Assembly: GCA_022361255.1 (NCBI GenBank)
Contig: JAKSBG010000193.1
Span: forward strand, 1 to 45,842
Length of the DNA stretch: 45,842 nt
Reading direction: 5' to 3'
From: Verrucomicrobiales bacterium
GTDB lineage: Bacteria; Verrucomicrobiota; Verrucomicrobiia; Verrucomicrobiales; DEV007
The position numbers were made by a program, and so were the translations under genes. Under the pieces are notes generated by a model. That model had not been told where the DNA came from, did no database searches, and was given only the letters and a program-made list of their open reading frames with translations. Positions within the stretch are counted from its first letter, which is position 1, and every line of letters begins with the position of its first letter. Of the stretch, positions 10,936 through 34,633 are shown piece after piece.

Positions 10936-12354
10936 ATGAAGGACCTGTTAAAAATCGCAGTGGCCCTGTTTCTTTATTCGGGGCTGGCACCGCTTCTGGG
11001 CATCTGGCTGACTGGCCGGCGGGCCTGGCAGCGTGTGATTTTTGTGACGATGATTGTTCTGACAGGTCTTCGTCCGGGGAACTTCACCTTCATGATCAAC
11101 AGCGTCGAACGGTATCGGGGACATACCAAAGGTTTTGAAATTTCCCTGATCGAGGTGCTCGCGCTCGCTCTGATCGTTGCTATTACCCGCCAGCTACGAT
11201 CGGAACATCCAGCTCCGGGACGTCGTGTCGTGAGAGTCCCGGGGTTGTTCCTTTATCTGCTCTGGTGCTCGATGGCTTTGGTTTCCTTTGTCGGGAGTCC
11301 GGAGCCCGGATATGCCTGGATGGCTGCTTCACGCTTTTTTAAGGGGGCTCTCATATTTGCGGCGGCTGCTCTCTATTTGCGTGATGAAACCGACCTGCGA
11401 TGGGCAGTAGGGGGATTTGCGGCAGCGATTGGCCATCAGGGGCTGCTCACACTGAAGATGCGGGTGATCGACGGGATGTTTCAGGTGAAGGGTTGGTTCG
11501 AACACCAAAACCCGATGGCGATGTGGTGTTACCTCGGTGCCCTTCCTGTCTTTGCGATGGTTCTCCACCCGAAAGTGAAGGGAAAGTATCTCTGGCTGTG
11601 TCTCGCCGGCTATGGCGGGGCGGCTTTGGCCATCCTGGTGTCGGTGTCCCGGGCCTCCCTGGCTGCGTTTGCGGTCGGATCGGCCTGTTTACTGGGGCTC
11701 GCTCTACTCCGGGGATTCAATCGGCGACTATTGGGGATCTCCGGAATGGCGATGATTGCTGCAGTCGTGGTTTTTTTCTTCGGTCTCGATTCCTTTAAGG
11801 CTCGGCTCGCCGAGGTGGAGCAAAGCAGTCAGGAAGTCGAACTCGATCTGCGGGATGTTCTCAATTTGCAAAGCGCCGCTATGTTGCGTGACCATCCTGT
11901 TTTTGGAGTCGGGTGGAATAATTTCGGGATCGTCAACAGTCGCCCGCGGGGGGATCGCTACAGTGAGATTCTGGAAGAGTGGGACCGGGACCGCGGCTTT
12001 ACGATCTACGACGAAAACTACCAGGCGAACCCCCTCACGGAAAGCCTCTACTGGCTTTGGCTGGCGGAGACGGGGTGGGCCGGATTTCTCACCTTTGTTT
12101 TATTTATCGTTATATCTCTGACGTGGCCGCTTCGGGCAATGTTTCGGCTCAGGGGAACCCTTGCCGGTGCGATCGCCGGAGCAATCTTCATTGCCCTTCT
12201 CCTGTGTTATCTTCACGGTACGGTTGAGCGAATTCTCACTCAAACGAAGAACCTTTCGCAATGGATGATTTTGGTCGGGCTGGGAGCAGGGCTGCTGCGC
12301 TATTCACGTCTTTTCGCGGAGAACAAATCTCAGCGACGGCCAGCGGCGAGGTGA
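10936..12354 (+). CDS. O-antigen ligase / Wzy-like polymerase, integral membrane
   Basis: 472 residues with about ten to twelve hydrophobic segments. The central part resembles the Wzy_C / O-antigen ligase domain: WFEHQNPMAMWCYLGALPVF near 190, a VSVSRASLAAF motif near 240, then a long loop with DHPVFGVGWNNFGIVNS near 315-331 and the usual WLWLAETGW before the last helices. Ligases and polymerases of this superfamily join undecaprenyl-linked glycans in the periplasm. Its sequence also recalls the exosortase-associated ligase-like proteins, but no exosortase gene is present here. In a locus with Wzx, copolymerase and exporter genes, a polymerase role is most likely. It is the only plus-strand gene within the minus-strand arm, with its own divergent promoter region. 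Confidence 0.87.
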   Translation: MKDLLKIAVALFLYSGLAPLLGIWLTGRRAWQRVIFVTMIVLTGLRPGNFTFMINSVERYRGHTKGFEISLIEVLALALIVAITRQLRSEHPAPGRRVVRVPGLFLYLLWCSMALVSFVGSPEPGYAWMAASRFFKGALIFAAAALYLRDETDLRWAVGGFAAAIGHQGLLTLKMRVIDGMFQVKGWFEHQNPMAMWCYLGALPVFAMVLHPKVKGKYLWLCLAGYGGAALAILVSVSRASLAAFAVGSACLLGLALLRGFNRRLLGISGMAMIAAVVVFFFGLDSFKARLAEVEQSSQEVELDLRDVLNLQSAAMLRDHPVFGVGWNNFGIVNSRPRGDRYSEILEEWDRDRGFTIYDENYQANPLTESLYWLWLAETGWAGFLTFVLFIVISLTWPLRAMFRLRGTLAGAIAGAIFIALLLCYLHGTVERILTQTKNLSQWMILVGLGAGLLRYSRLFAENKSQRRPAAR

Positions 12355-13742: not shown

Positions 13743-14909
13743 CTACTCAGTTCCGAGGGAAACATTCAATCCAACCGGCGCGGCATTGGAGCCGGCTCCG
13801 GCATTACCACCTTCGTTGGCGGCGACAACGCGCACGAAGGTGTCGACGGCCTCGCGGCCGATTTCTTTAAAGGAGATCGACCCGTCTCCGGGCACATAAA
13901 CGATGTCGCCCGGATCGAGGCGTATGTTGGTGGCATTGCCATTCATGATCGCACTCGCGTCGACAATTGCGATTTTTGGATCTGTCAGGGATCCTCGAAC
14001 GATGGCAACCCGGTCGAGGCGGGCTGTGCGAAGAAAACCCAGCCCCCGACCCAGGGCTGCGGTCAATGTCATTTCGTTCATAAATCCGACCGGTCTCGGT
14101 TCGGTTACGGCTCCGAGAACATAAACTTCATTCGTCAGCGCGGAGGGCAAATAAATAAAATCATCCGGACGCAGGTAAACGTTGTAGGAGAGATCCCCTT
14201 TGCGAATCAGGGCTTCGAAATCGATCGGTAACATCTTTCCGTCGCGAACGAGGAAACTGTGTTGGAGGTCGGCCAGTTCTTCGGTGGTTCCGGTAAATCG
14301 TGACGTGAAGAGTCCTCCCGAAAGGGAAAGTGCATCAAGCACCTGCATTGGTGCATTGATTGGATAGTTTCCCGGTGAGTTGACCCGTCCGAGAATCGTA
14401 AACTGCTGGCTGGTTGCTTCCACGAGTGTAACGCTGACCTGCGGATTCCGGTAGAATCTGGTCAGGCCTGATTCCAGCTCTGCTTTCAGTTCCCGGGTCG
14501 ATTTTCCTTCCGCTTCGACTCCATCGAGTAGATCGTAGTAAATACGTCCGTCGGGGGTTACGAAAGTTTCCTCCCGGGTATCCGGTTCGCCGATAATTTC
14601 GAGCTCGAGTTGGTCTTCGGGACCAAGCCGATAGTCCCCGTCGGGAGGCTGTAGCATAGTGGGGGTCGGTTTACCGCGGGAGGCGGATTCTCCGAAATCC
14701 GGTTCGACCGGGGTGGGGGTTGCGACTTGCGATGGATTTTTAGACTCGCGCGGATGGAATGTGTTCTGGTGTCCCGTTTTGCAGGAGGACGCAATCAGGC
14801 TGCAGAGGAGAGAAATGAGAAGCGCGCGGGGAAATGTCCAGGGTCTTTCCCCTGCTTCAGCCGGAGAGGTATCCCGGTGGTGATTCTGTCTGATGGCGTT
14901 TCGGACCAT
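13743..14909 (-). CDS. Polysaccharide export protein, Wza/OPX type, likely lipoprotein
   Basis: 388 residues. A hydrophobic stretch at 29-42 ends in LIASSC (Cys43), an acceptable though not ideal lipobox. The Poly_export domain starts at about 93 (YRLGPEDQLELEIIGEPDTR), followed by two SLBB beta-grasp domains at about 168-250 (FTILGRVNSPGNYPI) and 261-340 (EVYVLGAVTEPRPVGF). A final helix (EIGREAVDTFVRVVAAN, about 349-365) and a Gly/Asn-rich tail may form the outer-membrane segment, as in Wza. Export proteins of this kind form the periplasmic/outer-membrane channel. From about residue 93 to its end it is clearly related to the last third of the fusion protein at 15728-18727, so the locus encodes two paralogous export modules. 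No stand-alone copolymerase accompanies it. Confidence 0.92.
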   Translation of the reverse strand: MVRNAIRQNHHRDTSPAEAGERPWTFPRALLISLLCSLIASSCKTGHQNTFHPRESKNPSQVATPTPVEPDFGESASRGKPTPTMLQPPDGDYRLGPEDQLELEIIGEPDTREETFVTPDGRIYYDLLDGVEAEGKSTRELKAELESGLTRFYRNPQVSVTLVEATSQQFTILGRVNSPGNYPINAPMQVLDALSLSGGLFTSRFTGTTEELADLQHSFLVRDGKMLPIDFEALIRKGDLSYNVYLRPDDFIYLPSALTNEVYVLGAVTEPRPVGFMNEMTLTAALGRGLGFLRTARLDRVAIVRGSLTDPKIAIVDASAIMNGNATNIRLDPGDIVYVPGDGSISFKEIGREAVDTFVRVVAANEGGNAGAGSNAAPVGLNVSLGTE

Positions 14910-14975: not shown

Positions 14976-15647
14976 TTATTCCCCGGTGTATTGAAGATAC
15001 TTGATGACCGCTTCGGTCCGGGAGCGGACGTGCAACTTGCGGTAGACTGACTTCAAGTAGTCACGAACCGTTTCGTAACTGATGTGGAGTTCGTAGCCGA
15101 CCTCTTTCGGCACCATTCCCTGGGCGAGAAGTTCGAGAATCTGGCTTTCCCGTGGAGTGAGCCCCGGAATTTCCTTTTTCTCGGGCTCGGCTGGTTCCTG
15201 AAACGACTGGATCACCATCCGGGCGATGTCCTGACTTAGCGGAGCCCCTCCCCCGGCAGCCTGCCGAATTCCCTCAGCGATTTCCGCAGGACTCGAAGAC
15301 TTGAGTAGATAGCCACTCGCCCCGGCCCGTAGAGCCGAAAACACCTTCTTTGAATCGTCGTGAATTGTGAGGACGACAAACGCAGTGTTGAGCAGGTGGG
15401 GGGAGATTTCTTTGATCCACTCGATTCCGGAAACTCCGGGGAGTTCAAGGTCGACGACGATGACATCGGGCTTCAGATCAAGCGCCGGTTTGACGGCGTC
15501 CTCAGCCGATTCCCATGCTCCGGCAAGGGTGAAATACCCGGGCTTGCTCTCGATGAGGCGGGAGACAAAGAGCCGAAGGGTGGGGTCATCTTCAATAATC
15601 CCGACACTCAGGTTACGGATTTCTTCTTCGGTATCACTTTCCGCCAT
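14976..15647 (-). CDS. NarL/LuxR-family response regulator
   Basis: 223 residues from the ATG at 15647; an open frame reaches 15788 but would run into the upstream gene, and the receiver domain starts right after the chosen Met. The receiver domain (about 14-135) has the acidic pair Glu19/Asp20 with Asp21, phospho-acceptor Asp66 (VIVVDLELPG), Thr94 and Lys116, all intact. A LuxR-type helix-turn-helix follows at 160-220 (LTPRESQILELLAQGMVPKE, then YETVRDYLKSVYRKL). Phosphorylation normally promotes dimer binding to promoters. There is no adjacent sensor kinase: the only kinase in the window is the H-NOX-linked hybrid kinase at 29275-32646. Position inside the polysaccharide operon suggests it controls the locus. 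TATAGT lies seven bases upstream of the ATG, too close for a normal leader. Confidence 0.93.
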   Translation of the reverse strand: MAESDTEEEIRNLSVGIIEDDPTLRLFVSRLIESKPGYFTLAGAWESAEDAVKPALDLKPDVIVVDLELPGVSGIEWIKEISPHLLNTAFVVLTIHDDSKKVFSALRAGASGYLLKSSSPAEIAEGIRQAAGGGAPLSQDIARMVIQSFQEPAEPEKKEIPGLTPRESQILELLAQGMVPKEVGYELHISYETVRDYLKSVYRKLHVRSRTEAVIKYLQYTGE

Positions 15648-15727
15648 GTTGTAACTATACCGCCATCGCAGCGGTTGAGCTACTTCGAAATGTACGGCAT
15701 TAGTTACTTTAGAGACGGGTATTCCAT

Positions 15728-18727
15728 TCAGCGGCGTTGCGGAAGGAGGGGGCCGTTGATGATTGGCCCGATATTCGCACCGGCCCATGAGGAAACGGTC
15801 CCCTGGCAGAAGGTGTCGAGCGCGATTCCAAGAAGCTCTTCCGCTCTTGCCCAGGGGTGGTCGGCAATAAAAACGATGTCTTTTGGTTCCAGCCGAAATC
15901 CAGTGTCGCGGGCCGTGAGAGTTCGCTGCATATCTACGACGAAAGTTTCCGGTTTCTCAAGGGATCCACGGATCACGAGAATGCGTTTGCGGTAGGCTTT
16001 TTCGCTGAATCCTCCGGCCTGGGCAATCGCACTGTGAACCGATGTATGGGCCAGCAGCCCCTGAGTTCCCTGCATTTTGACATTTCCAAACACGTGGATT
16101 TCGTTGGAGTTGGCGGAGGGAAAATAGAGATAGTCACCGGCGGCAACGGAGAGATTCTGGCTCATATCCCCGCGGAAGAAGAGAGCTTCGAAATCGACAT
16201 TGAGCCGTTTCCCACCTCGAATCAGGAAGCTGCGCCGCAGGTCGGCCAGCTCAACCGTGTTCTGCTGAAAAAGGCCCGTTTCAAGCCCTCCGGCAGCGGC
16301 AACGACATCCGTGACTTTCATGGGGCGCTCAAGCTGGATGGCTCCCTTTTTCACGATTTTTCCAAGGACGTAGACGCGCTGGCTCCGGAAGAGGTGCGGC
16401 GTGACAGTGATGCGGATGTTGCGATAGTAGCGGGAGAGTTCCCGATTCAATACCGTTCTGAGTCCGTCGATACTGAGTCCTGCTGCAGGAATCGCCTGTG
16501 CCTGGAGGTAGGTAAGGGTGCCATCAGGACCGACCGTGACGCCTTCCCGGGACAGTTCCGGCTCACCGGCGAAGCGGATGTTAACTTTGTCACCCGCACC
16601 GAGAAGAACCGGGGTCGCCGCCTCAAGGTGGGTGGCCGGAAGAAATGAGGCAAGGGCAATCCCCGCAGTAACCGCAAGTTTTTGAAACCGCTCCAGTTTT
16701 TGCAGAGGACGAAGACTGTAGGTCGGGCATTCTTCGAGCAGCGCTCCGGTGAGGGAACACCCTGCGGCATCATAGAGGCGGGTCTGTTCAGAGCAGGGCG
16801 CCACCTTTTCCAGACCTTTTCCGATCCAGAGAAGGTTGGGCAGGTTTTCAGCAAGCAGCAGGGTTTCCGGCGCTCCGGGATCAGGGAGTTCGATGAGAAT
16901 CACCAGCTGACTTGAGCTTGTCCAGTCGTTCACGGCATCGAGAAACTGACTGCGTTGCGTGGCGTTCCATTCCCAGTCGTCCTCGACGTGGATATGCAGA
17001 ATTTTTTCCGGACGTTCCGTAAGTACTTCCAGAATCCGCTCCGTGACGTCGAGAGCAGATTCAAGACTGACAGAGTGTTCGGTTTTTGTGCGTGAAACGA
17101 GAAGGGCGGATGCCCCCCGTCGGGCCGCCGCTTCCGCGAGTAGAGCGGGGAGGGCACTTTGGTGCGATGTAAGCAGGCCGCAAACCTTCGCCTCGCATGA
17201 TTCCGCACGGCGGAGTTGTGGCAGAAGGCGCGTCCAGGTAGTGAATGCCCACTCTTTGCGTGCTACCGGATCTTCCAGCGTCGCGGCCTCGACGTGTCCG
17301 AGAACAGGGAGTTTCGTGATCCTTTTGAGATCGTCCGCAGACTGAATCCGGTTGCTGAGGAAGATAGAGACGACGGAAAGGAATACGATCAGGCCGGCAC
17401 CTCCCGCGAATCCGGCACCTGCGGCCAGCATCGTTTTTTGCGTGGGAGTCATCACAGCCACGTCTTCGATGCGGTCTTTGGAGAGAAGGCGGAAGGCTCC
17501 TTCGGCACTGTCCTTGACGAGGGTGGCTTCGCGCAGTCGAGCCGCAAGAAGGTTGCGTGAGGTTTCTGCAGCAACGCGTCGTGCCCGGATACGGGCAAGC
17601 TCCACGGACTTCCGGGGCAGTTGATCCAGCTTCTCCCCGACAGCGAGCCGAACTTCGTCCAGCTTTTCCAGCTGTTCCGCAAGAGCGCGTTTCTCCCCGC
17701 GAAGCTTGATGAGATCGAGGTAGAGGCTCTCAGCAATGGCATTCTCGCCGGGACGGGGCGGTTGGGAGGCGGTGGCGGGGTTCTGGATTTCCGCCTCTGC
17801 TTCCAACTCGAGAGACCGGACTGTCGCGAGAGCATTCTGCAAAGTCGGATGCTCGTCGGTGTAGCGTAGCTGAAGAGCGGCAAGTTCCTCGCGGGCCTCG
17901 TGAAGTTTCGCCGCCGCCGGGCTGACTTTGGCCAATTCGTCTTCAATTTCCCCGATACGGAGATCGAGAGTCTCGTGGTCGAGGCGAATCTCCTGGTAAC
18001 GAAGATTGTGATTGGCGAGCTCTCCGAGCAGGGCGTCGGTTTGCTTGTCAGGATCCACAATGTCTTCCTTTTTCGCGTAGGCGAGCAGCTCGGCATTGAG
18101 GCGGTCGATTTCAGATTCGGCTTGATCGATTTCCTTTTTGAGGAGACCTGCCATGGTGCCGGCATCGTGTTGCTGAATAGACCGGGAAAACTCGAGGACT
18201 TCGCCGAGATAGGCTTCCAGGGCGACGAGAGAGGTTTTTCGATCCTGATCCGAATTGATCGAAACATGAATGATGTCGGTGTTGCGCTGAGGGTTAACCG
18301 AGAGCCCGGCTCGCAGTGCCCCCTCATTCATCAGACCCTCCATGCGCGTGACCGCTCCTTCGAGAACCGGTCCCGACCACATCATTGCGACCATATTGGG
18401 AATCGAGACCTCTTGGGGAGTGTAGGGGTCGCCTCCTTCACTCTGGCGGAGCGAATTTTGAGGGGCCAGTTTGATGAGTTGTGCCGAGGCGATGTGACGG
18501 GTTTCGAATTTTTTTGAAGCAACGAAACCAAAAAGAACGGCGAGGATGCTGCCGAGAAGGAACGCGGCCCAGAGCCAGCGGTAGATGGCGTCAGCGACGC
18601 GAAGAGGATCAAAGGGAAGGGAAAAGGAGGCCGGTTCAGTCGCAGTCGATTCGTCTTCACGAATCGATGCGTCCGCTTTCGCAAGCTGCGAGTGATGGGG
18701 ATGGATGACTGCGGTGCTCGATGACAT
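15728..18727 (-). CDS. Fused polysaccharide copolymerase (Wzz/Wzc-like) and export protein (Wza-like)
   Basis: 999 residues from the ATG at 18727; an in-frame ATG at 18787 would add 20 residues and deepen the overlap with the upstream gene. In order: transmembrane helix 1 at about 50-70; Wzz-like periplasmic domain; long coiled coil about 190-410; transmembrane helix 2 about 432-456; a P-loop-kinase-like domain about 475-665 in which the Walker A site is lost (GLLTSHQSALPALLAEAAAR, no GK[ST]); a signal-peptide-like helix about 683-703 ending HLEAATP; Poly_export domain about 705-780; two SLBB domains from about 783 and 877; a final helix like that of the separate export protein. Topology fits inner-membrane copolymerase, inactive cytoplasmic domain, then return to the periplasm. 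No Tyr-rich tail is present. One protein could thus bridge polymer-length control and export. Confidence 0.9.
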   Translation of the reverse strand: MSSSTAVIHPHHSQLAKADASIREDESTATEPASFSLPFDPLRVADAIYRWLWAAFLLGSILAVLFGFVASKKFETRHIASAQLIKLAPQNSLRQSEGGDPYTPQEVSIPNMVAMMWSGPVLEGAVTRMEGLMNEGALRAGLSVNPQRNTDIIHVSINSDQDRKTSLVALEAYLGEVLEFSRSIQQHDAGTMAGLLKKEIDQAESEIDRLNAELLAYAKKEDIVDPDKQTDALLGELANHNLRYQEIRLDHETLDLRIGEIEDELAKVSPAAAKLHEAREELAALQLRYTDEHPTLQNALATVRSLELEAEAEIQNPATASQPPRPGENAIAESLYLDLIKLRGEKRALAEQLEKLDEVRLAVGEKLDQLPRKSVELARIRARRVAAETSRNLLAARLREATLVKDSAEGAFRLLSKDRIEDVAVMTPTQKTMLAAGAGFAGGAGLIVFLSVVSIFLSNRIQSADDLKRITKLPVLGHVEAATLEDPVARKEWAFTTWTRLLPQLRRAESCEAKVCGLLTSHQSALPALLAEAAARRGASALLVSRTKTEHSVSLESALDVTERILEVLTERPEKILHIHVEDDWEWNATQRSQFLDAVNDWTSSSQLVILIELPDPGAPETLLLAENLPNLLWIGKGLEKVAPCSEQTRLYDAAGCSLTGALLEECPTYSLRPLQKLERFQKLAVTAGIALASFLPATHLEAATPVLLGAGDKVNIRFAGEPELSREGVTVGPDGTLTYLQAQAIPAAGLSIDGLRTVLNRELSRYYRNIRITVTPHLFRSQRVYVLGKIVKKGAIQLERPMKVTDVVAAAGGLETGLFQQNTVELADLRRSFLIRGGKRLNVDFEALFFRGDMSQNLSVAAGDYLYFPSANSNEIHVFGNVKMQGTQGLLAHTSVHSAIAQAGGFSEKAYRKRILVIRGSLEKPETFVVDMQRTLTARDTGFRLEPKDIVFIADHPWARAEELLGIALDTFCQGTVSSWAGANIGPIINGPLLPQRR

Positions 18728-19925
18728 GGGATGGGTGTCGGTTCGGGGCACTGTCAGTCTCAAAGGCGGGAGTCTCAATCCCCCCAAATGGAGGTCTCAG
18801 AGTGTTTCGGCACGTATCCAGCAGGGTTTGCGCGACATTCTCCCAGCGAAATTTTTGAGCATGCTCGAGTCCCTTTCTCCGCAATTCTGCCTGAAGCTCA
18901 GGATCTACGGCAATGGTTGCGAGGGATTCCTGGAGGGAATCGATGGACTCCGGATCGATCATCAGAGCTGAATCGCCCACTACTTCACGGAGAGCTCCCC
19001 GGTCGGAGCTGATCACCGGGCAGCCACAGGCCATCGCTTCGATTGGGGGCAGTCCGAATCCTTCGAAAAGGGAGGGGAAAATCATGGCACCGGCTTTCCG
19101 GTAGAGGTCGGGTAGCACCTCATCGGAAACGAATCCGGGAAATTCAATCGCGTCGTGATGCCTTGCATTTGCCGCCGCGTTTCGAATCACCTCCGCACCA
19201 TGCCAGTCTCCTCCTGCGAGCACGAGCCTCCAGTTCGAACCCGTCGCGGTTTTGAATCGATCAAAAGCTTCGATCAGGCGGACATGGTTTTTTGCGGGAT
19301 GCTCGAGCCGGGAGAGATAGAGAAAGAAAGGAGTGTCGGCGGGTGGAGGTGCCTGTTCCCTTTTCGTGGGAGTGAGGTTTCCCGGATGAAAGCGTTCGTG
19401 TTCGAGCCCGTTCCAGACAACGCGAATCTTTGCAGGGGAAATCCGGAAAAAAGTCTTGAGGTCTGATCCGGTAAAATGGCTGACGGTGAGAATGGCATCC
19501 TGTCTTTTCGCGAGAAACCGGGCAATGTAGCGACCGTAGAACATGCGGACCGGATCGTATTTTCCGGCAAGCCGGAATGGTGCGAGATCGTGAATTGTCG
19601 AAACCATCGGGCAGGGCGCAAAAGCGAGCATGCGCCGATAGGAAGGAATGTGGACGACGTCAGCGTTTTCTTTCCGAAGGAGGAAGGGGAGAACAAACTG
19701 ATGCCAGAAAATGTTCTTCACCGGGGAGCGCCATCTTTCTGCGACTGGTATGATGCGAACACGTTTGCTCGCGAAATCGAAGAGGGGAATATCCTCCTGA
19801 AGCACAAACAGGGTCAGGCGGTGGGAGCCCGGGGTATCGAGCAATGAGCGGACGAGTTCAAAGACATAGCGTGCAACGCCGGATTCTCCCCGTTGAATCA
19901 CGCTGGTTGAAATGGCGAGGTTCAT
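18657..19925 (-). CDS. Glycosyltransferase family 4 protein
   Basis: 422 residues from the ATG at 19925, which overlaps the stop of the upstream GT4-WecG gene (ATGA). The open frame reaches 20072, but the glycosyltransferase fold starts at NLAISTSVIQRGESGVARYV. The acceptor domain has VVHIPSYRRM and STIHDLAPFR; the donor domain has PFFLYLSRLEHPAKNHVRLI, then FPSLFEGFGLPPIEAMACGC (EX7E) and SSDRGALREVVGDSALM, typical of the mannosyltransferase-like GT4 branch. The fold ends near LLDTCRNTL; the last ~45 residues (from RPPFGGIETP) have no glycosyltransferase similarity, coincide with a GC-rich repeat-like sequence, and overlap the start of the fusion protein gene by 71 bases. The original stop may have been lost. 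Confidence 0.9.
   Translation of the reverse strand: MNLAISTSVIQRGESGVARYVFELVRSLLDTPGSHRLTLFVLQEDIPLFDFASKRVRIIPVAERWRSPVKNIFWHQFVLPFLLRKENADVVHIPSYRRMLAFAPCPMVSTIHDLAPFRLAGKYDPVRMFYGRYIARFLAKRQDAILTVSHFTGSDLKTFFRISPAKIRVVWNGLEHERFHPGNLTPTKREQAPPPADTPFFLYLSRLEHPAKNHVRLIEAFDRFKTATGSNWRLVLAGGDWHGAEVIRNAAANARHHDAIEFPGFVSDEVLPDLYRKAGAMIFPSLFEGFGLPPIEAMACGCPVISSDRGALREVVGDSALMIDPESIDSLQESLATIAVDPELQAELRRKGLEHAQKFRWENVAQTLLDTCRNTLRPPFGGIETPAFETDSAPNRHPSHVIEHRSHPSPSLAACESGRIDS
18775..18800. repeat. Short repeat-like sequence inside a glycosyltransferase C-terminal extension
   Basis: TCAATCCCCCCAAATGGAGG (18775-18794) followed by TCTCAG is a C-run/G-run element like those in gaps at 14944, 24811, 28593 and 33830. 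GTCTCA occurs on both sides. It is translated as RPPFGGIETP in the extra tail of the glycosyltransferase ending at 18657. The match to the other elements is partial. Confidence 0.3.
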
Positions 19926-21889
19926 GATGGCCGTGCAGGGTTGGAATTCCGTCGCAATTCCGTCCACGCGGCTGCGACAAAGACGGATAGATCGGTTGCG
20001 TATCTTTGAAAGAGGCGTCGCGGTTCCTGAAGAAGCCGGAATACCCATTCGAGACCGGAACGACGCATCCACCGGGGGGCTCGTTTCCTGTTACCGGCAA
20101 GGAAATCGACGGTTGCACCCAGACCGATTCCGACCGGAACCCCGGAGGTGGCGAGATGACGGGAAAGCCATTTCTCCTGTTTGGGGCACCCGAAGAAAGT
20201 CAGGAGAATGTCGGGCGACGCAAATTCGATCCGGCGGAGAATCTCGTCCTGGTCCATGTCTTCGAGAGGGGCAAAAGCAGGGGAGTAACTTCCGGCAATT
20301 TCGAGGCGGGGATAGTGATTGCCAACATTCTCCACAGCCTGTTCCAATACCTGTTCTTTGCCGCCCAGAAAAAATACGCGCCAACCTTTCCGTTCCGCGA
20401 GAGCAAGGAGGTGGGGCGTCATGTCTGATCCGGCAACACGCTCCGGCAACGCTTTTCCGAGAAGCCGGGAAAGCCAGACCAGGGGAGTTCCGTCGCAGAG
20501 AACGAGGGGGGCGTTTTCCAGAATTTCGCGCAGTTCGGGATCGCGGCGTGACTGAACGAGAAAGTCGACGTTAGCGGTCGCAATCTGGCTGGGCTGCCTT
20601 GATTCCACCATCTCCGAAATCCGGGCCAGAGTCCCTTCGAGGGAAACCCGGTCGAAGGGGATGTCGAGCATGCGAACGCGGTCGCGGTTCGGTGTCGACA
20701 TTGCGGGGTAGGAGTTTGCGAGGTCTTTTCCGATCGATTTCCACGCGAAGTGTTCATGCGCCTGACGAATACCGTTGGTCTGAAGGTTTCCCCGGAGGAT
20801 TTCCGAAGACAAAGCATCGACCACTTTTGCGGCGAACGCTCCGGCATCGTCGGCCAGCAAAATATCAGTTCCGTCTTTGAGATTCAGACCCTGAGCTCCG
20901 ATCGAAGTCGACACGACCGGAAGTCCCATCGAGAGGCTCTCAATGATTTTCAGACGTGTGCCTCCGCCGATACGAAGTGGCACGATCTGAATCCACGATC
21001 GACGGTAGTAGGGGCGAACGTCGGGAACCCCGCCTGTAACCGTGACGCCTTCTACTTTTGAATACTCCCGGATTTCGGGGCCTGCCTCTCTCCCGACGAT
21101 CAGAACTTTCAGTTCCGGTATTGCCTTCGCAATATGTTGGTGGATTTCCGAAAAATACCAGCGGATGGCGTCGATATTCGGCATGTAATCCATCGCACCG
21201 CAAAAGACGATCGTCGGGGAGAGGTCGGTGTTGTTGTGCGGATCGTGGCGGAAATAGTCGAGGTCGACTCCGTTGGGAACGACCTGGAGGGGAACGGAGC
21301 GACTGATAAATCTGCGGACGAATCGATGATCGTCCGGACCACAAAGAACCTGGCGTTGGCTTCTTCGGGCGACGCGCTTTTCGTAGAACCAGAGTTTTGC
21401 GATGTTCTCGAGGGCGAGAAGTTTTCCTTTCCACGAGCGAATGCCAAAACGGGTTTGCTGAGTCTGATACTGGAGGTCAACCCGGCTGCGATCGACGGTT
21501 AGAGGAATGTCTTTGTGTTCTGTTAGAAAATACTGAGCGAGCACGATATCGCAAACATGGACGGCATCGTAGTCGTAGCGCCGGAGTTGCTCCCGGATGG
21601 AATTGGCAACTTCTTCGCAGTTCCAGTGCTCGATCGTCGACGGTTTCGGTTGAAAGAAGCGCTGCGGGAAAAGCTTCTTCCATTTCGGGTGCGAGAACGG
21701 GACGAAACGAACCTCGCGACAGAAGGACTCAAATACCGGCTGATGTTCGAGTCGCTCACCGTTTTCACTGAGTGCGAGGAGGTCGACCGTGTGACGCTCA
21801 GCGAGCCCCAGGAGGAGGTGGAAAGTTCGCTGAAACGTCCCACGGTCTAAAGGAAAAGGAATGTAGGGGTAGATGACGAGAATGTTCAT
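19922..21889 (-). CDS. Glycosyltransferase GT4 fused to WecG/TagA/CpsF glycosyltransferase
   Basis: 655 residues from the ATG at 21889; the upstream part of the open frame (to 22120) is antisense-like and overlaps the acetyltransferase gene. Residues 1-395 are a GT4 enzyme (NILVIYPYIPFPLDRGTFQR, FCGAMDYMPNIDAIRWYFSE, VPLRIGGGTRLKIIESLSMG), of the subgroup similar to sugar transferases of the PEP-CTERM/exopolysaccharide loci. Residues about 405-640 are a complete WecG/TagA/CpsF domain (GT26): TANVDFLVQSRRDPELREIL, VLCDGTPLVWLSRLLGK, FGCPKQEKWLSRHL and GLGATVDFLAGNRKRAPRWM. GT26 enzymes add N-acetylmannosamine(uronate), glucose or similar to a lipid-linked sugar. The junction falls at Met397, exactly where a free WecG could start, which suggests fusion of two neighbouring genes. 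Two successive sugar additions by one protein are plausible. Confidence 0.92.
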   Translation of the reverse strand: MNILVIYPYIPFPLDRGTFQRTFHLLLGLAERHTVDLLALSENGERLEHQPVFESFCREVRFVPFSHPKWKKLFPQRFFQPKPSTIEHWNCEEVANSIREQLRRYDYDAVHVCDIVLAQYFLTEHKDIPLTVDRSRVDLQYQTQQTRFGIRSWKGKLLALENIAKLWFYEKRVARRSQRQVLCGPDDHRFVRRFISRSVPLQVVPNGVDLDYFRHDPHNNTDLSPTIVFCGAMDYMPNIDAIRWYFSEIHQHIAKAIPELKVLIVGREAGPEIREYSKVEGVTVTGGVPDVRPYYRRSWIQIVPLRIGGGTRLKIIESLSMGLPVVSTSIGAQGLNLKDGTDILLADDAGAFAAKVVDALSSEILRGNLQTNGIRQAHEHFAWKSIGKDLANSYPAMSTPNRDRVRMLDIPFDRVSLEGTLARISEMVESRQPSQIATANVDFLVQSRRDPELREILENAPLVLCDGTPLVWLSRLLGKALPERVAGSDMTPHLLALAERKGWRVFFLGGKEQVLEQAVENVGNHYPRLEIAGSYSPAFAPLEDMDQDEILRRIEFASPDILLTFFGCPKQEKWLSRHLATSGVPVGIGLGATVDFLAGNRKRAPRWMRRSGLEWVFRLLQEPRRLFQRYATDLSVFVAAAWTELRRNSNPARPS

Positions 21890-21900
21890 GGTGTCCGTGA

Positions 21901-22413
21901 CTATGGGGTAGCTAATACCCGCGCGGGAATTCCCGCAGCCCTCACATTTGGGGGGATCTCCTTTGTCACGACTGCGGAAACTCCGATCACGGCGTCGTCC
22001 CCGATGGTGACGGCTCCGACGGCTTTTGCGCCATCGCCCATGAAGACACCGTTTCCGAGGACAGGTCCCTGCCTGTTGCCATGCGCGAGAACCAGTCTGG
22101 TGTCCGCGTAGAGATCGCAATTTTTTCCCACTACCGATCCGGGTGCGATGATGATTCCAGTCGGATGCGGAAGCCGCAGTCCGGGGCCGATACGGGCCTC
22201 ACTGCTGATTTCGATACGGAAGAACCAGAAGAGCAGTTTCGCAGGGATGATCGTCGGGATCCGGTGCTTGCGGCACCAGAACTGGAATCGAATAAGAGCG
22301 ACGGCGTGAATGCTGTTGAGTGTGCCGGCCAGCAGTTTTCGCTTCCACCCGGGGAGGGCATTGTAGTCGGCGAGGTTGCGTTCGATGTCGCGGGAAAGGT
22401 TGGGGAAGATCAT
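21901..22413 (-). CDS. Serine acetyltransferase-like hexapeptide acyltransferase
   Basis: 170 residues from the ATG at 22413. A short helical N-terminal part is followed by a left-handed beta helix: RIGPGLRLPHPTGIIIAPGS (His83 is the probable catalytic base), then GVFMGDGAKAVGAVTIGDDA and the closing IPPNVRAAGIPARV. This is the CysE-related LbH fold widely used in polysaccharide loci to O- or N-acetylate sugars; real serine acetyltransferases are longer at the N terminus and would be expected near cysteine genes, absent here. It lies two bases after the stop of the nucleotidyltransferase-fold gene and 11 bases before the next start, so it is within the operon. An open frame starting at 22488 is rejected because it runs over the upstream gene. 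Confidence 0.87.
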   Translation of the reverse strand: MIFPNLSRDIERNLADYNALPGWKRKLLAGTLNSIHAVALIRFQFWCRKHRIPTIIPAKLLFWFFRIEISSEARIGPGLRLPHPTGIIIAPGSVVGKNCDLYADTRLVLAHGNRQGPVLGNGVFMGDGAKAVGAVTIGDDAVIGVSAVVTKEIPPNVRAAGIPARVLATP

Positions 22414-24850: not shown

Positions 24851-25720
24851 TTACCGGGAGGCTGCGGCGGATTCGAGTCCGGCCACAGTGCCGGCCAGAT
24901 TTCCACGACGTTGATGCCATCGAATTTGCATGGCGTGGGGTAACTCACCCACCCGCCCGTTTGCGACGCAGTAGTGGAGATCTTTTTTGAAATCTTTTAC
25001 CCAGCCAAGAGCGACGTGGGAGACCCAGCTCGGGGCGATCTTCCCCGGTGAGGACTTTGCGATCGCCTTCGCGTCCCCGAACGATCGTTTGAAGATTTCA
25101 GGGGCGGTGTAGTTATGGCTGTGCATTACGATGGATTCGGCAGCGTAGGCAATTTCGTAGCCTGCATTCCGGCACCAGCGGGTGTATTCGTCATCTTCGG
25201 CGTACTGGAGATCTTCGCGGAAAGGGCGTTCTTTCCACACGCTCTTCCGGACACCGCTGCTCACCATGCTGAAGAAGTGATCCCAGGAAGCGGACTCCCT
25301 GTGCTTCCCGAAACAGCGCTCGTAGTCACATGCGTAGACGGCTTCGCAGTCAGGTCGGGGAATCTGGCAACCGAAACAGGCACCGACCCCCGGTTTTGAA
25401 AGCGCTTCCACCAAAGCGCTGAGCCAGTTTTCATCCTGCGGCGTCGCGTCGGCATTCAGAAAGATGCAGAGCTCCGTGTCTGCCAGTTCCATTCCGCGGT
25501 TCAGAACTTTTCCGGGAATGTAGGTGCCGGGTTCGATTTCGATGAAGTGAAGAGGGTGCGCTGCGCGGATGAGCTCCTGTGAGCCATCGGTGCTGCCACT
25601 GTCGATTACGATAAGTTGCCAGTTCCGGTAGCTTTGCATCTCCAGTGCGGGGAGTGTGTCGCGGAGTGCCCAGGCTTCGTTGAAACTGCGCATGATGATT
25701 GTCACGGGAGGTTGCTTCAT
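24851..25720 (-). CDS. Glycosyltransferase family 2 protein
   Basis: 289 residues from the ATG at 25720, which overlaps the stop of the flippase gene (ATGA). The open frame reaches 26017 but the extra part is antisense-like. GT-A features: PVTIIMRSFNEAWALRDTLP, LIVIDSGSTDGSQELI, LCIFLNADATPQDENWL (metal-binding NAD in place of DxD, about 93-95), and LQYAEDDEYTRWCRNAGYEI with the catalytic ED. The C-terminal 70 residues are helical (SHVALGWVKDFKKDLHYCVA), typical of rhamnosyltransferase-like GT2 enzymes. It is placed directly after Wzx, as expected for a repeat-unit glycosyltransferase. Donor not determinable. Confidence 0.92.
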   Translation of the reverse strand: MKQPPVTIIMRSFNEAWALRDTLPALEMQSYRNWQLIVIDSGSTDGSQELIRAAHPLHFIEIEPGTYIPGKVLNRGMELADTELCIFLNADATPQDENWLSALVEALSKPGVGACFGCQIPRPDCEAVYACDYERCFGKHRESASWDHFFSMVSSGVRKSVWKERPFREDLQYAEDDEYTRWCRNAGYEIAYAAESIVMHSHNYTAPEIFKRSFGDAKAIAKSSPGKIAPSWVSHVALGWVKDFKKDLHYCVANGRVGELPHAMQIRWHQRRGNLAGTVAGLESAAASR

Positions 25721-27276
25721 GATAATTTGGCCAGTCGGGGAATTCGTTTGGAAAGTGCAATGCGGAACCGGTGTTGTTCTTCGTTTGTCAGGCCGAAGAA
25801 GAAGGTGGAGAAAATAGCGATCACTCCCGCGCTGGATCCGGAGATCGCGAGAAGGACGAAGGGCGAATCGAATAGCGGCACAATAAAGGCCTGAGCCCCT
25901 GTGAGAAAGACCAAGGGAGCGAGCGCGGAGGAGAGTGCAGGGGCAATGCTTGCCCGAAAGTAAAGTCGGAGGCTCATTCCGGATTCTCTTGCCATCCAGG
26001 GCCAATAGTGTTTCCAACCGAAATACAAAGTGGGAAGCAGAGATCCCAGAGCGACTCCCACAACGCTTTTTGTTGAGATCACGAGGAGTATGCTGAGCAG
26101 AAGGTTGGCAATAGCTTCGGCAGCGCCGAGACGTGTCAGTTTTCTCTCATGTCCCGTCATCATGAAGACGCGTCGGGAAACGCTGTGGGTGAGAATGGCT
26201 GTGTAGTACCAGATGAGAAGGATTTGGCCAATCAGCCAGGTCTCTCTTGCGAGCGTTCGGTCTCCGGTGAGGAGCGTGATAAGGGCTTCCAGATGAAAGG
26301 CGCAAAGCAGGTAAAGGGGGGTGGCGAGAAGGGCACTCCATCGATTTCCTTCCAGCAACAGAATCCGCAGACCCCTGCCGTCTCCCGAAGCATTCAGCGA
26401 CGCGGCGGCCGGGGAAAGAGCCTCCTGCAGTTGACGGGTGAAGTCGCGAAACATCTCTGCAATTTTCGCTCCTGCCTGATAAAGAACAATCGCACCGACT
26501 CCCAGTGATGCCGTAATTACGAGCTGATCTGTTCTCGAAAGGGCGAGATTGATGAGGATTCCGCAGTAAGCGAAAACCGAGAAATGTGCTACTGATCGAA
26601 GAGTGGTAATCGAGAAGAGACGCGGCGAGATCCTGATTTTCGGCAGGGAGCGAAAGGCAAAGAAGGCGGCGCAGAGATCGGGAGCCAGGGTCGATCCAAT
26701 GGCAATGAGAAGAAGGGTTGTAAAACTCCAGCCAAGGTTTACTCCGGCAACCACGAGAACCAGGCGGACCGAAACCGCTGCGATTACGAGCCAGTTTGCG
26801 ACGTGAATTTTCTGCTGTCCCCGCAAGATCTCAGGAAAAATTCCGAGGGGAAACGAAAGGCTGACGCCGGCGAAAAACAAGCCGAGTGCCACTCGGAATT
26901 CCTCTTCCCTTCCATCGGGCAGGCCGATCCATCCGATCCATGTCGCAGAAGTGGCGAAGACGACGACAGGTAGCGCGACAGCGATGCCGATGTAGAAGAA
27001 TAGAATCGACGAAAGGATACGGCTCAGCTCGCTCCACGATTCCGCGACCACGAGCTCGGCAACACGTTTCTGTGCGGCGAATCCGAGTCCGAAATCAAAG
27101 ATGACTCCCATTCCGAACAGACTCCAGAGAAGTGCCCAGAATCCGAATTCCTCTTCCTCGAAGTATCCGTAGAGAAGGCGGAATGTCAGCAGTCCGGCGA
27201 CGAGAGCGACGGATGTGCGAAGATAATTGGAGACCGTATTGCGAACGATCGTTTTGGACATGGATAAGTCAGCCAT
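25717..27276 (-). CDS. Wzx-type polysaccharide flippase
   Basis: 519 residues with about twelve to fourteen hydrophobic segments and the N-terminal motif NTVSNYLRTSVALVAGLLTFR, followed by FGFWALLWSLFGMGVIFDFG, which is the standard opening of Wzx/MOP-superfamily flippases. These move undecaprenyl-pyrophosphate-linked repeat units across the inner membrane. The ATG at 27276 is used; an ATG at 27261 is possible. The start overlaps the stop of the GT4 gene upstream by eight bases and its stop overlaps the GT2 gene by four. Together with the sugar-phosphate transferase at 33884, the Wzy-like protein and the export modules it completes a Wzx/Wzy pathway. Confidence 0.9.
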   Translation of the reverse strand: MADLSMSKTIVRNTVSNYLRTSVALVAGLLTFRLLYGYFEEEEFGFWALLWSLFGMGVIFDFGLGFAAQKRVAELVVAESWSELSRILSSILFFYIGIAVALPVVVFATSATWIGWIGLPDGREEEFRVALGLFFAGVSLSFPLGIFPEILRGQQKIHVANWLVIAAVSVRLVLVVAGVNLGWSFTTLLLIAIGSTLAPDLCAAFFAFRSLPKIRISPRLFSITTLRSVAHFSVFAYCGILINLALSRTDQLVITASLGVGAIVLYQAGAKIAEMFRDFTRQLQEALSPAAASLNASGDGRGLRILLLEGNRWSALLATPLYLLCAFHLEALITLLTGDRTLARETWLIGQILLIWYYTAILTHSVSRRVFMMTGHERKLTRLGAAEAIANLLLSILLVISTKSVVGVALGSLLPTLYFGWKHYWPWMARESGMSLRLYFRASIAPALSSALAPLVFLTGAQAFIVPLFDSPFVLLAISGSSAGVIAIFSTFFFGLTNEEQHRFRIALSKRIPRLAKLS

Positions 27277-28723: not shown

Positions 28724-29278
28724 ATGTACGGACTTGTGAACAAAGCAGTAGAAGATCTCGTCGTTTCCAATTTTGGTGAAGATAAATGGGAGGCCATTAA
28801 GAAACGGGCAGGAGTGGAGGAGGAAGTGTTTATCAGCAATGAAAGCTATCCTGATGACCTCACCTATGACCTCGTCGGAGCGGCTTCTGAAATTCTTGAA
28901 ACGCCTGCCGAGAGTATTCTGATTGCTTTCGGTGAACACTGGGTCCTGAAAACGGCAAGTGAGAGTTACGGCTCGATGATGAAAGCCGGTGGACGTTCTC
29001 TGAAGGAATTTCTCGTGAATCTGCCAAACTTTCACACGCGGGTCTCCATGATCTATCCGGATCTCAAGCCCCCGCGTTTCGAGTGCGTCGACGTTGGCGA
29101 GGACTGCCTCGAACTGCGTTACTATACTCATCGCCCCGGCCTCACTAATTTCGTGGTTGGTCTGGTTCAGGGCCTGGGCAAATACTACGACACACCGGCC
29201 ACCTGCGAGTTGATCGAAAATCGTGAGGAGAACGGTGAATGTGACCGCTTTCAGGTTAAATGGCAGGCTGAGTCGTGA
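28724..29278 (+). CDS. H-NOX heme nitric-oxide-binding sensor protein
   Basis: 184 residues, the usual length of stand-alone bacterial H-NOX proteins. The N terminus [20 protein letters not shown] is diagnostic. His104 in [18 protein letters not shown] is the proximal heme ligand, Pro116 the conserved heme-distorting proline, and Tyr133-x-Thr135-x-Arg137 the heme-propionate clasp (consensus Y-x-S-x-R, Ser replaced by Thr). The following helix [13 protein letters not shown] has no Tyr where O2-binding members have one, which favours NO over O2 as ligand (inference). Family members bind NO and then inhibit or activate a partner kinase or cyclase. Its TGA overlaps the GTG start of the HNOBA hybrid kinase, the expected partner. 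The gene heads the plus-strand arm of the polysaccharide locus. Confidence 0.95.
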
Positions 29279-32200
29279 TTACAGAACCGTCAGTGTCTGC
29301 ACAGGAAGGCTTGTCAGCGGACGAGTTTGCAGCAGTGTTTCCATTCTACTTCGCCTGGGATGATTCCGGTGAAATCCTCGATTGGGGGAAATCTCTGGAG
29401 AAGACATGCGGTAACCTACGCCCGAACTGTCGTGTCTCTGATATCTTCAAACTGATCCGGCCGGAAGGCACTTTCGAGGACCTGGGGGTTGAGGCATCCT
29501 CCGACCTCCTCTTCCTTTTTGAACATCGGGACAGTGGAACCAAATTCCGCGGGCAAGTGATATCCCGTCCCGGAGAATCGAGAAATCTGATGCTCTGCTC
29601 CCCCTGGCTCCAGAGCAGTGACGAGTTGGATCGCCTGGGAATTACTTTTGGAGACTTTGCCATTCATGACCCGTCGCTGGATTTGCTTCAACTGGTGCAG
29701 ACGCAGCAAATGGCGAATTCGGATCTGCAGAAACTGGCAGACCGGTTGACTGCGAGTCGCGCTGACCTGAAAGCGCGGGAGGAAGAGTCCCGGAAACTGG
29801 CGTTGGTTGCATCAAGAACCGACAACGCGGTTGTGATGACGGACAGCAGCGGAAACATTGAGTGGGTCAATGACGGTTTTTCGCGGATGACCGGGTGGAC
29901 GCTCGACGAGGTGGAAGGAAAATCCCCCGGGAGTTTCCTTCAGGGGCCGGGGACCGACAGGGAAACGGTCGAGTATATGAGTCAGCAGCTTTCGGCCGGA
30001 AAAGGATTCACTTCAGAAATCCTGAACTACCACAAGATGGGGCGTCCATACTGGGTCTCTCTGGAGGTGCAGCCCATTTTCGGTGAGGGCGGGGAAATTA
30101 CGAATTTCATGGCGATCGAAACCGATATCACGCAGAGAAAGCGGGACGAAACCCGGCGTGAGGTGCAGTTGGACGTATCGCGGGTTTTGAACGGCGATGG
30201 AAGTCGCACGGAAACTTCAGGAAGAATTCTCGCGGCTATTGGTGAGCGGCTTGGCTGGTGTGTCGGGAGTGCCTGGTTGCTGAATGAAGAAACGCGAACT
30301 CTCCAACTCATTCAGACCTATCTCGATGAGACGAGCGAGAATCAGGCAGCATTGAAGCAATTTCTGAAGACTTCATCAGAATATCAGTTTCACATCGGGG
30401 TGGGCTTGCCGGGGCAGGTTTGGGAGGCCGGCGAAACCCGTTGGGTCGAGAACCTGCATGAAGTCTCAAAATGCTGTCCACGCGCGGCAGCCGGCTATGA
30501 AGCCGGATTAGGTGGTGTCCTCGCGTTTCCGATTTTGCAGGGCGGCCAGGTCCTGGGAGTTTTCGAATTTTTCTGGGGATACAATGATCCCATCGATGAC
30601 TTTTTCCCGCGTGTTCTTACCGGTATCGGGGCTCAGATCGGGCAGTTTTTTGCAAGAAAGGAAGTCGAGTACGATGTTCTTGCCGCCAAAGAGCAGGCCG
30701 AATCAGCAAACCGGGCAAAAGGAGAGTTCCTTGCCACAATGAGTCACGAGATTCGCACGCCGATGAACGGAATTATTGGTATGGCGTCTCTGTTACTGGA
30801 TTCCGAGATGAAGGGAGCCCAGCAGGAGATGGCTTCGTCGATTCTTTCAAGCGGTGAAGCACTTATAACAATAATCGATGACATTCTCGATTTCTCCAAG
30901 ATTGAGGCGAGAAGGCTCGAAATTGTGAGTGAGGTGTTCTCTTTGGACGCGGTAATAGACGGTATCGTCGATCTGCTCTATCACAAAGTTCAGGAGAAAG
31001 GTCTCGAAATGAGTGTTGTTATAGAGCCGGGAGTGCCCTCATCCATCGTGGGGGATTCGGGCCGCCTTCGTCAAATCGTTTTGAATCTGCTTGGAAACGC
31101 AATCAAGTTTACGGACGAGGGAGAGGTTAACATCTTTGTTAGATGTGCCCCTGACAACCGGGGCGAGCGAATTGAGATTGTGGTTGAGGACACCGGGATC
31201 GGGATGAACCGGGACCAGTTGAATCGCCTGTTTCGACCATTTTCACAAGTCGATGGATCGTCCACTCGCCGCTACGGCGGGACCGGATTGGGCCTCGCAA
31301 TTTCCAAACGTCTCGCGGAATTGATGGGCGGAAGAATCAGCGTGACCAGCGAACCGCAGAGAGGTTCGGTGTTTTCCCTGGTGCTGCCGACGGGAAATGC
31401 CACCAGCGAGAGTGAGCCGGTTTTGCCGTCGGAGATTCGCGGGAAACGGGTGCTCATTGCTGACGAAGTTTCTCTTTCCCGGCATGCTGCGGTTCTGGCA
31501 CTGGCCGGCACAGAGTATCCTCCGCTCGCGGTTGCGAGTGATCGGGAAGCGATTCACGAACTCAAAATGAGGCGGGGGCAATGGGATGTTCTGCTAATCA
31601 GCAGTCGTCTTTTCGGAGATGGGATCTCCGATGTTTTGAAGGAAATGGACGAATCATCGACTCGTCCCCGTGTTATACTTATGGGCCAGTTTACAGATTC
31701 GATGAGGGATCGGGCGGTTCTGAATAAGGAAGACACCCTCCTCTACAAACCCCTCCGGCGCCGGATGCTCTTTGAGGCGATGATGCGGGGCACCTCCCCG
31801 GAAAAAGCGGAGGTTGAGACAAAGAAGCAACGTCTCATTGCCGATGAACTGCCGCACATACTCATCGTGGAAGACAACGAGGTGAATGCACGGGTGGCCA
31901 TTATGCATCTCGAGAAATTGAGCTTTCCGTATGAGCACGCTCCGAACGGAGCGGAGGCAGTCGAACGTTTTCGCAAGGGAGTATATGATGGAATTCTTAT
32001 GGATTGTCATATGCCGGTGATGGACGGCTACGAGGCGACAGGAGCGATACGCGAGATCGAATCAGATGAAACATGGTCGCGTCCACCGATTCGTATTATA
32101 GCGATGACAGCGAATGCCATGGCCGGTGAGCGCGAGCGGTGCCTGGATGCGGGAATGGATGACTATCTTTCAAAGCCCCTGCGATCTAACGATTTGCTGG

Positions 32201-32646
32201 AAGCTCTGTCTTTGATTCAACCCGCCGGGTTTCCTGAGAACCCGGCAGCCGGGTCTTCAAACATTTCGGGAAAAGAGGAGGATCCCGGAGTGGAGGATTC
32301 TGCACGGGTGGCTGTGATGCGACTTGCAGAGGAGTTGGACCGGGATTCGGCGATGCAGTTGATTGATAGATGGATCGAGGACACACCTCTACGTCTCGAT
32401 GAGATTGATGAGGTCGCCGGTGGGGAAAACCAAAAGGAGTTGAAACGCCTCGCCCATTCTCTGAAAGGGGGCAGTGCTCTCTTCGGGCTGGATACCTTTC
32501 ATCAACTTTGTTACCAGCTTGAAAGGATGGCGGAGGATGAGGAAATTCCCGGGCAGGTTTCCCTGGCTGCATCAGTCCGAAGTGAATTCGCGCTCGCGAA
32601 ATCTCAATTGAAAACCCTGCATTCGGAGCTGGAGAAAAATTCATGA
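29275..32646 (+). CDS. HNOBA-PAS-GAF hybrid histidine kinase with two receivers and Hpt domain
   Basis: 1,123 residues from a GTG that overlaps the H-NOX stop (GTGA). Order: HNOBA domain about 15-135 ([59 protein letters not shown]) as in soluble guanylate cyclase; coiled coil to about 170; PAS about 175-290; GAF about 295-455; HisKA with His491 ([11 protein letters not shown]); HATPase with Asn608 and [19 protein letters not shown]; receiver 1 about 720-840, in which Ser776 replaces the phospho-acceptor Asp; receiver 2 with Asp910 ([15 protein letters not shown]); Hpt with His1061 ([13 protein letters not shown]). No transmembrane helix, so cytoplasmic, as H-NOX is. Expected function: NO-bound H-NOX alters autophosphorylation and a His491-Asp910-His1061 relay passes phosphate to a separate receiver. 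Candidates are the STAS-receiver protein (35952) and the NarL regulator (14976). The stop overlaps the next glycosyltransferase start. Confidence 0.95.
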
Positions 32647-33828: not shown

Positions 33829-33862
33829 TCCCCCCTCTTGAGGGGGATTACAGATGGGGGTG
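33829..33862. repeat. GC-rich hairpin between glycosyltransferase and sugar transferase genes
   Basis: TCCCCCCTCTTGAGGGGGAT (33829-33848) folds as a 7-bp CCCCCTC/GAGGGGG stem with a two-base loop and is followed by GATGGGGGTGG. It starts just after the stop at 33827 but has no T-run, so it is a poor intrinsic terminator. It is the clearest member of the palindrome family also seen at 14944, 24811 and 28593. An ATG at 33854 inside it is in frame with the next gene. Confidence 0.5.
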
Positions 33863-33883
33863 GTGACGATAGTTTTCGTCGTC

Positions 33884-34633
33884 ATGAACACCACTCCAAC
33901 TTTTTCCCGAAAGTCCTACCGTCAGCTCAGACGATCTGTGAGCCCGGTTGGTAGACTCCTCCTGGATTCCTTGTTTTTCTTTCGCCGCATTTCCTGGTGG
34001 TCAGTGAATCGCGGGAGAAGGTTGGCCAAACGTGGTTTCGATCTCGTCGCGGCAACGATCGTTCTACTGATGAACGCTCCGTTGATGGTGTTTGTGTCGC
34101 TTTTGATTCGTCGCGACGGTGGGCCGGTTCTTTTCCGTCAAACCCGGGTAGGGCTCCACGGCGAAGAGTTTCAGATGTGGAAATTCCGGTCCATGTGTGT
34201 TGACGCGGAGGATCGGCTCGCGGCTCTTCTCGAGCAAAACGAGAAAGACGGCGGAGTCACATTCAAGATGGCGAATGATCCGCGCATCACTCCGATTGGA
34301 CGGTTTATCCGGCGGACTTCAATTGATGAACTTCCTCAGTTGTTCAACGTCCTGCTTGGTGACATGTCCATCGTGGGACCTCGCCCTCCGGTTCCACGGG
34401 AGGTTTCCCTCTACGGCGTGGACGACAGACGACGATTTCTCGCCAAGCCCGGCTTGACCTGTCTCTGGCAGATCGGTGAGCGGGACGGACGGCTTTTTGA
34501 GGTCTCGGATCGCAACACGATCGATTTTGGAGAGCAGGTCCAGCTCGACGTTGACTACATCGAAAGACAAAACCTTTGGCAGGATATTCGAATCGTTCTC
34601 AAAACGCCTCCCGCCATGCTCCTTGGTAAGTGA
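33884..34633 (+). CDS. Undecaprenyl-phosphate sugar-1-phosphate transferase (bacterial sugar transferase)
   Basis: 249 residues from the ATG at 33884; an in-frame ATG at 33854 lies inside a repeat and is less likely. After a basic N terminus, KRGFDLVAATIVLLMNAPLM (re-entrant hairpin) opens the bacterial sugar transferase domain, with GGPVLFRQTRVGLHGEEFQM, WKFRSMCVDAE (the Asp-Glu catalytic pair), ITPIGRFIRRTSIDELPQLF, NVLLGDMSIVGPRPPVP and KPGLTCLWQIGER. Such monotopic enzymes start repeat-unit synthesis by moving a sugar phosphate from a UDP-sugar to undecaprenyl phosphate. The extra four-helix N-terminal part of WbaP/WcaJ is absent; this is a short, PglC-like core with a small leader. It is the priming enzyme of the locus. 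Confidence 0.92.
   Translation: MNTTPTFSRKSYRQLRRSVSPVGRLLLDSLFFFRRISWWSVNRGRRLAKRGFDLVAATIVLLMNAPLMVFVSLLIRRDGGPVLFRQTRVGLHGEEFQMWKFRSMCVDAEDRLAALLEQNEKDGGVTFKMANDPRITPIGRFIRRTSIDELPQLFNVLLGDMSIVGPRPPVPREVSLYGVDDRRRFLAKPGLTCLWQIGERDGRLFEVSDRNTIDFGEQVQLDVDYIERQNLWQDIRIVLKTPPAMLLGK

Follow-up and report, generated by a model that had tools for sequence, protein, structure and literature searches.

A Verrucomicrobiales gene that joins a copolymerase, a pseudokinase and an outer-membrane exporter in one frame, with a signal-peptide-like segment before the exporter

PCP (copolymerase) and OPX (exporter) proteins are textbook separate partners. How, then, should a gene be read that encodes both in a single frame: as one long chain, or as a precursor of two proteins? 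The window, that is, the whole stretch of 45,842 nucleotides analyzed here (contig JAKSBG010000193.1 of assembly GCA_022361255.1), carries such a gene on its minus strand, in a frame that is open from the ATG at 18727 to the stop at 15728-15730 and contains 0 ambiguous bases. An earlier note on this DNA had described one uninterrupted frame with the order Wzz-like domain, P-loop-like domain without Walker A, signal-peptide-like helix, and Poly_export plus two SLBB domains; both the frame and the order were borne out, as follows.

15728..18727, minus: fused ORF of 999 aa, comprising PCP, pseudokinase, predicted internal signal peptide and OPX (ORF, Pfam, NCBIfam)
18515..18577, minus: TM1, residues 51-71, N-in/C-out (hydropathy)
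17435..18514, minus: periplasmic PCP part, a Wzz-like base and helical arm, residues 72-431 (TIGR03007 138-482; Wzc/PslE profile matches)
17354..17434, minus: TM2, residues 432-458 (hydropathy)
16724..17353, minus: BY-kinase-like domain without Walker A or the Walker B Asp, residues 459-668 (CapB 3bfv profile match; motif alignment)
16619..16723, minus: junction with the predicted internal signal peptide, residues 669-703, made up of n-region TYSLRPLQKLERFQK, hydrophobic core 684-699 and c-region HLEA
16616..16621, minus: predicted signal-peptidase cut A703/A704, HLEA^ATP (score 3.46 versus a family mean of 5.77)
15731..16618, minus: OPX (exporter) part, residues 704-999, with Poly_export, SLBB_2, SLBB and a C-terminal amphipathic helix at about 962-980 (Pfam; Wza; Foldseek)

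Not all of the domain names proposed in the earlier note were recovered by Pfam. Poly_export (704-776), SLBB_2 (783-868) and SLBB (878-921) were identified in the OPX part, while Wzz, GNVR and AAA_31 had no Pfam match in the 999-residue ORF, and the PCP part was instead recognized by NCBIfam TIGR03007 (XrtA chain-length determinant; residues 138-482, E 1.6e-14). Among PDB entries, a profile of eight homologues matched Wza (5.9e-36), Wzc (7nhr/9exq, about 5e-12), PslE (9v75, 1.3e-11) and CapA1-CapB (2.9e-6). The OPX part matched Wza with an E of 2e-20, and Foldseek of its model returned Wza 2j58 (E 1.5e-18); this OPX-only AlphaFold2 model (pLDDT 58) was used solely to confirm the Wza fold, and a full-chain model, built from two sequences (pLDDT 35), was discarded. 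Since the OPX part had no Pfam match to Wza_C (PF18412, the Class 1 outer-membrane helix) and ends in a short amphipathic helix only, it is classed by its domain content as Class 3-like. Two TM helices, placed by hydropathy only, flank a helical periplasmic PCP domain as in PCP-2a; the chain would thread through TM1, the periplasmic PCP part and TM2 into a cytoplasmic pseudokinase.

The same single-frame fusion was found in 15 further genomes of Verrucomicrobiota, the phylum sampled for fusions, for 16 main-lineage fusions including the window's. The nearest homologues were those of G032 (65% identity), G015 (62%) and G045 (55%), the last from another family of the order; more distant fusions were encoded by 12 genomes (G050, G037, G065, G171, G527, G538, G585, G661, G654, G620, G616 and G544). 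A sequencing or assembly error that erased a stop between two genes might be suspected from the fragmented assembly of the window's genome (548 contigs) and from two split relatives, G436 and G484, in which PCP and OPX1 genes lie in one frame with a single in-frame stop between them. Against this exceedingly improbable explanation, the frame recurs in 15 other genomes, and one of these, G171, is a single contig. The shared frame excludes both a lost stop and a misassembly, and the fusion is a real gene architecture. Flags of a TGA inside the gene in G065 and G171 were set aside as probably due to a match overrunning the gene's own stop (for G065, from the coordinates). The middle domain was strong in 20 of the 384 sampled genomes of the class, at 21 loci (13 fused and 8 split); G527 has one copy of each form. 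Within the genus of the window's genome, 3 of 34 genomes had the fusion, which marks the polysaccharide cluster as accessory, and a contig scan for the fusion found one copy only, apparently at the same locus as in G032.

Split orthologues, in which a PCP gene precedes an OPX gene that encodes a signal peptide of its own, were found in 13 genomes. Their gene order (PCP, then OPX1 with its signal peptide, then OPX2) supports the path to fusion suggested earlier, from a PCP gene and a downstream exporter gene that brought a signal peptide along. Of the 13 split pairs examined, 7 have a four-base overlap (ATGA) between the stop of the PCP gene and the ATG of OPX1. At least 5 fused/split changes on well-supported branches were counted on the OPX1 tree and at least 4 on the PCP tree, counts that carry no direction (fusion versus split), and a single fused clade was rejected, that constraint costing 85 log units on a reduced OPX tree (AU p 2e-83). 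On these trees, fused and split forms interchange repeatedly at one junction across Verrucomicrobiota, as would be expected if both forms yielded the same mature proteins.

The middle domain was detected only by a profile of eight fusions, which matched residues 459-668 to CapA1-CapB 3bfv (E 4.5e-6) and Etk 3cio (E 0.018); by these matches the domain that follows TM2 is a BY-kinase relative. In the motif alignment, none of the Walker A, A' and B motifs was found in the window's kinase-like domain, so that the earlier description of a dead kinase, with neither Walker A nor the Walker B Asp, held up. Walker A is wholly lost in the window's clade. Elsewhere, most fused and split relatives, G065 and G171 among them, have Arg in place of the P-loop Lys and others have Cys or Ala, Lys being retained only in G037, G050 and G616; almost all family members, most split relatives included, have another residue instead of the Walker B Asp. 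Because most split relatives are likewise without the Walker B Asp and the P-loop Lys, the decay of the kinase is no peculiarity of fused genes, and pseudokinase status is a family-wide trait independent of fusion. The Tyr-rich C-terminal tail is also absent, residues 640-703 holding just Y652 and Y670. With the kinase dead and its tail occupied, phosphorylation cycling of a Tyr tail could not operate here. Elsewhere in the window's genome, BY-kinase matches exceed the TIGR01007 cut-off at two places (C65:7918-8499 and C133:13888-14466 of G000); the pseudokinase is thus not the genome's sole copy.

What the mature products of the fused gene might be turns on the third hydrophobic helix (684-699), which in the window's ORF is followed by HLEAATP and which had been taken for the relic of a signal peptide from a once separate export protein. 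This segment is internal rather than N-terminal, and its n-region is positively charged in nearly every fusion. Its core averaged 15.6 aa among the fusions, versus 19.5 for TM1 (p 0.002) and 23.1 for TM2; the signal peptides of split OPX1 proteins averaged 15.4. Cleavage-site scores, from a matrix that approximates general knowledge and compared across related, non-independent sequences, averaged 5.77 for the third segment of the 16 main-lineage fusions versus 5.61 for split OPX signal peptides (p 0.95), with TM1 (1.76, p 3e-5) and TM2 (1.60, p 2e-4) of the same chains scoring lower. The observed mean was reached by 0 of 2,000 c-region shuffles, and the outcome was the same for ten spread-out representatives; with the (-3,-1) positions only, p was 0.11 against TM1 and 0.03 against TM2, and 101 of 2,000 shuffles reached the mean. 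A loose count of A-X-A motifs did not discriminate (random-position rate 0.47; TM3 versus TM1 p 0.23) and was for that reason replaced by the scored site with controls. Low conservation is usual for signal peptides. Here, junction identity was 24-34% versus 71-79% for the OPX part, the lowest conservation along the chain if the N-terminal tail is set aside, and signal-peptide features were kept there despite this fastest evolution.

A divergent second lineage (G311 and G291) also encodes PCP, kinase and OPX in a single frame with the same layout, and its junction has a lipobox-like SSGC or FTGC, as do its split relatives (G153, G139, G246 and G185), in which the PCP occupies another, overlapping frame and the OPX is a lipoprotein. 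Long frames in three of these (L087-L089, in G153, G139 and G246) resembled fusions by ORF length, yet were assigned to the split form, the PCP being in another frame. Among other OPX-related ORFs, L091 (G334; 836 aa) and L094 (G175; 632 aa) had several repeated SLBB-like matches. Its length and cleavage-site score being those of standalone signal peptides, the internal signal peptide of the main lineage still looks like a working one and not like a relic. Given this intact-looking segment and the lipobox of the second lineage, "single-chain" may describe the gene and not the mature protein. The gene probably encodes a polyprotein from which signal peptidase would release two products, a PCP-pseudokinase of about 77 kDa and an OPX protein of about 32 kDa.

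Separate OPX could also arise from an internal translation start near the signal peptide, which would yield both the full-length chain and OPX from one frame. In-frame ATG, GTG or TTG codons do occur near the junction in some relatives, and the ATGA overlap is where OPX begins in the 7 split pairs; but in the window, as in G050 and G544, the 30 codons that precede the core include none of them. The OPX part of the window would thus be made only within the fusion, and a start of this kind is quite improbable.

The chain might, on the other hand, remain uncut, with the third segment as a permanent membrane anchor and eight copies forming a conduit that is tethered to the inner membrane, its PCP and OPX rings covalently linked. 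An uninterrupted ORF conserved in 16 genomes would fit such an arrangement, as would the weak cleavage motif of the window (L-E-A^A, at 3.46 weaker than most; the site in G616 is also poor) and the long linkers between helix and OPX in several members (about 75-105 aa in G037 and G050). In the window's clade, however, only about 10 residues, or at most about 35 Å, separate the end of the hydrophobic core from the OPX fold. By cryo-EM, Wza and Wzc form an 8:8 complex that extends through about 250 Å of periplasm and in which Wza D1 sits at the tip of the Wzc forearm (PMC12881504), and the periplasmic part of Wza measures about 100 Å (PMC9601211); D1 would stand far above the inner membrane, by about 60 Å or more on any estimate. 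With so short a tether and D1 on the forearm tip, an uncut chain would, if the Escherichia coli geometry applies, be unable to place OPX in the known Wza position. The short signal-peptide-like core and c-region kept family-wide, the internal lipobox of the second lineage and the free interchange with split genes also speak against a permanent anchor, and we regard the uncut chain as doubtful. A covalently continuous conduit of eight copies, starting at the cytoplasmic pseudokinase, crossing the inner membrane and the periplasm and leading towards the outer membrane, seems unlikely; were the chain indeed uncut, the inner-membrane and export rings of the secretion machine would be one protein.

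If the polyprotein reading is right, TM1, the periplasmic PCP part, TM2 and the cytoplasmic pseudokinase would be translated first, in a Wzx/Wzy-type system, and the third segment would then act as an ordinary Sec signal peptide and take the chain out again, so that the OPX part reaches the periplasm. Signal peptidase I would cut after A703, releasing the OPX part as a periplasmic ring subunit of about 32 kDa and leaving a three-helix PCP-pseudokinase of about 77 kDa, in a strict 1:1 ratio that would match an 8:8 PCP-OPX assembly. By analogy to EcpK and HfsB, the pseudokinase may support the PCP as a scaffold without catalysis, and one could speculate that an adjacent lipoprotein, OPX2, completes the outer-membrane end. 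PCP and OPX have been joined and separated repeatedly at one junction with the secretion signal kept within the chain, lending natural covalent support to PCP-OPX pairing and to its 1:1 ratio. The gene is a rarity, a candidate bacterial polyprotein that is cellular (non-viral) and would be processed by ordinary signal peptidases; the need for kinase cycling in export also becomes testable in one gene.

Several other genes of a polysaccharide cluster surround the fusion, including several glycosyltransferases and the following.

14976..15788, minus: NarL/LuxR-type response regulator directly downstream of the fusion (Pfam Response_reg and GerE; synteny, conserved in the window's clade)
13743..14909, minus: OPX2, a second, separate Poly_export-SLBB protein with a lipobox-like N-terminus (Pfam, NCBIfam)
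25717..27276, minus: Wzx-like flippase (MatE, NF041503)
10936..12354, plus: Wzy_C-type polymerase or ligase (Pfam Wzy_C, E 1.3e-11)
33854..34633, plus: initiating sugar-phosphate transferase (Bac_transf)

At almost every locus read, fused or split, OPX1 is followed by an OPX2 that usually bears a lipobox. In the window, the response regulator separates the fusion from OPX2, an ORF of similar size occupies the same place in G032, G015 and G045, and at loci of the G171/G065 type OPX2 is directly next. Also inside the cluster are a GT4 and a WecG/TagA/CpsF glycosyltransferase fused in one frame (19922-22120, minus), with ORFs of similar length at the corresponding site of the clusters in G032, G015 and G045; an ORF with STAS and receiver domains (35952-36656, plus); and a BarA-like hybrid histidine kinase (29275-32646, plus).

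Among known systems, PslE of the Pseudomonas Psl pair PslE-PslD is one of the closest solved PCPs (9v75, E 1.3e-11). PslE (PCP) and PslD (OPX) are encoded by separate genes, unlike the fusion described here. Wza-Wzc, the OPX-PCP-2a pair of E. coli group 1 capsule and colanic acid, has homologous PCP and OPX modules, and its 8:8 ring assembly (PMC12881504) is expected to be shared. In contrast to that pair, one frame encodes both modules here, the kinase lacks Walker motifs and a Tyr-rich tail, its C terminus leads into a predicted signal peptide, and there is no Wza_C match. PCP-2 proteins that have a BY pseudokinase, whether joined or separate, have already been described, namely EcpK/EpsV, HfsB/HfsA and the joined SMc01795, and they resemble the present protein in a PCP-attached BY-kinase fold without catalytic motifs; here the OPX is joined too, and the portions of that account consulted mention no such joining (PMC12004946). 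Class 3 OPX proteins, including the D1D2 type, share the Poly_export-SLBB architecture without Wza_C but are separate secreted proteins or lipoproteins, and the portions consulted of two surveys contain no fusion to a PCP (PMC9603273; PMC9601211). A published PCP-OPX fusion was not found in the literature searched, and attachment of the OPX is, as far as that literature shows, the new part. The FbcH cytochrome b/c1 polyprotein of Bradyrhizobium, whose cleavage by signal peptidase was shown experimentally, likewise combines an integral membrane protein, a signal peptide and an exported partner in one ORF. Its proteins are unrelated to PCP and OPX, and cleavage of the present gene product is predicted; what the two would have in common is an internal signal peptide between two partner proteins.
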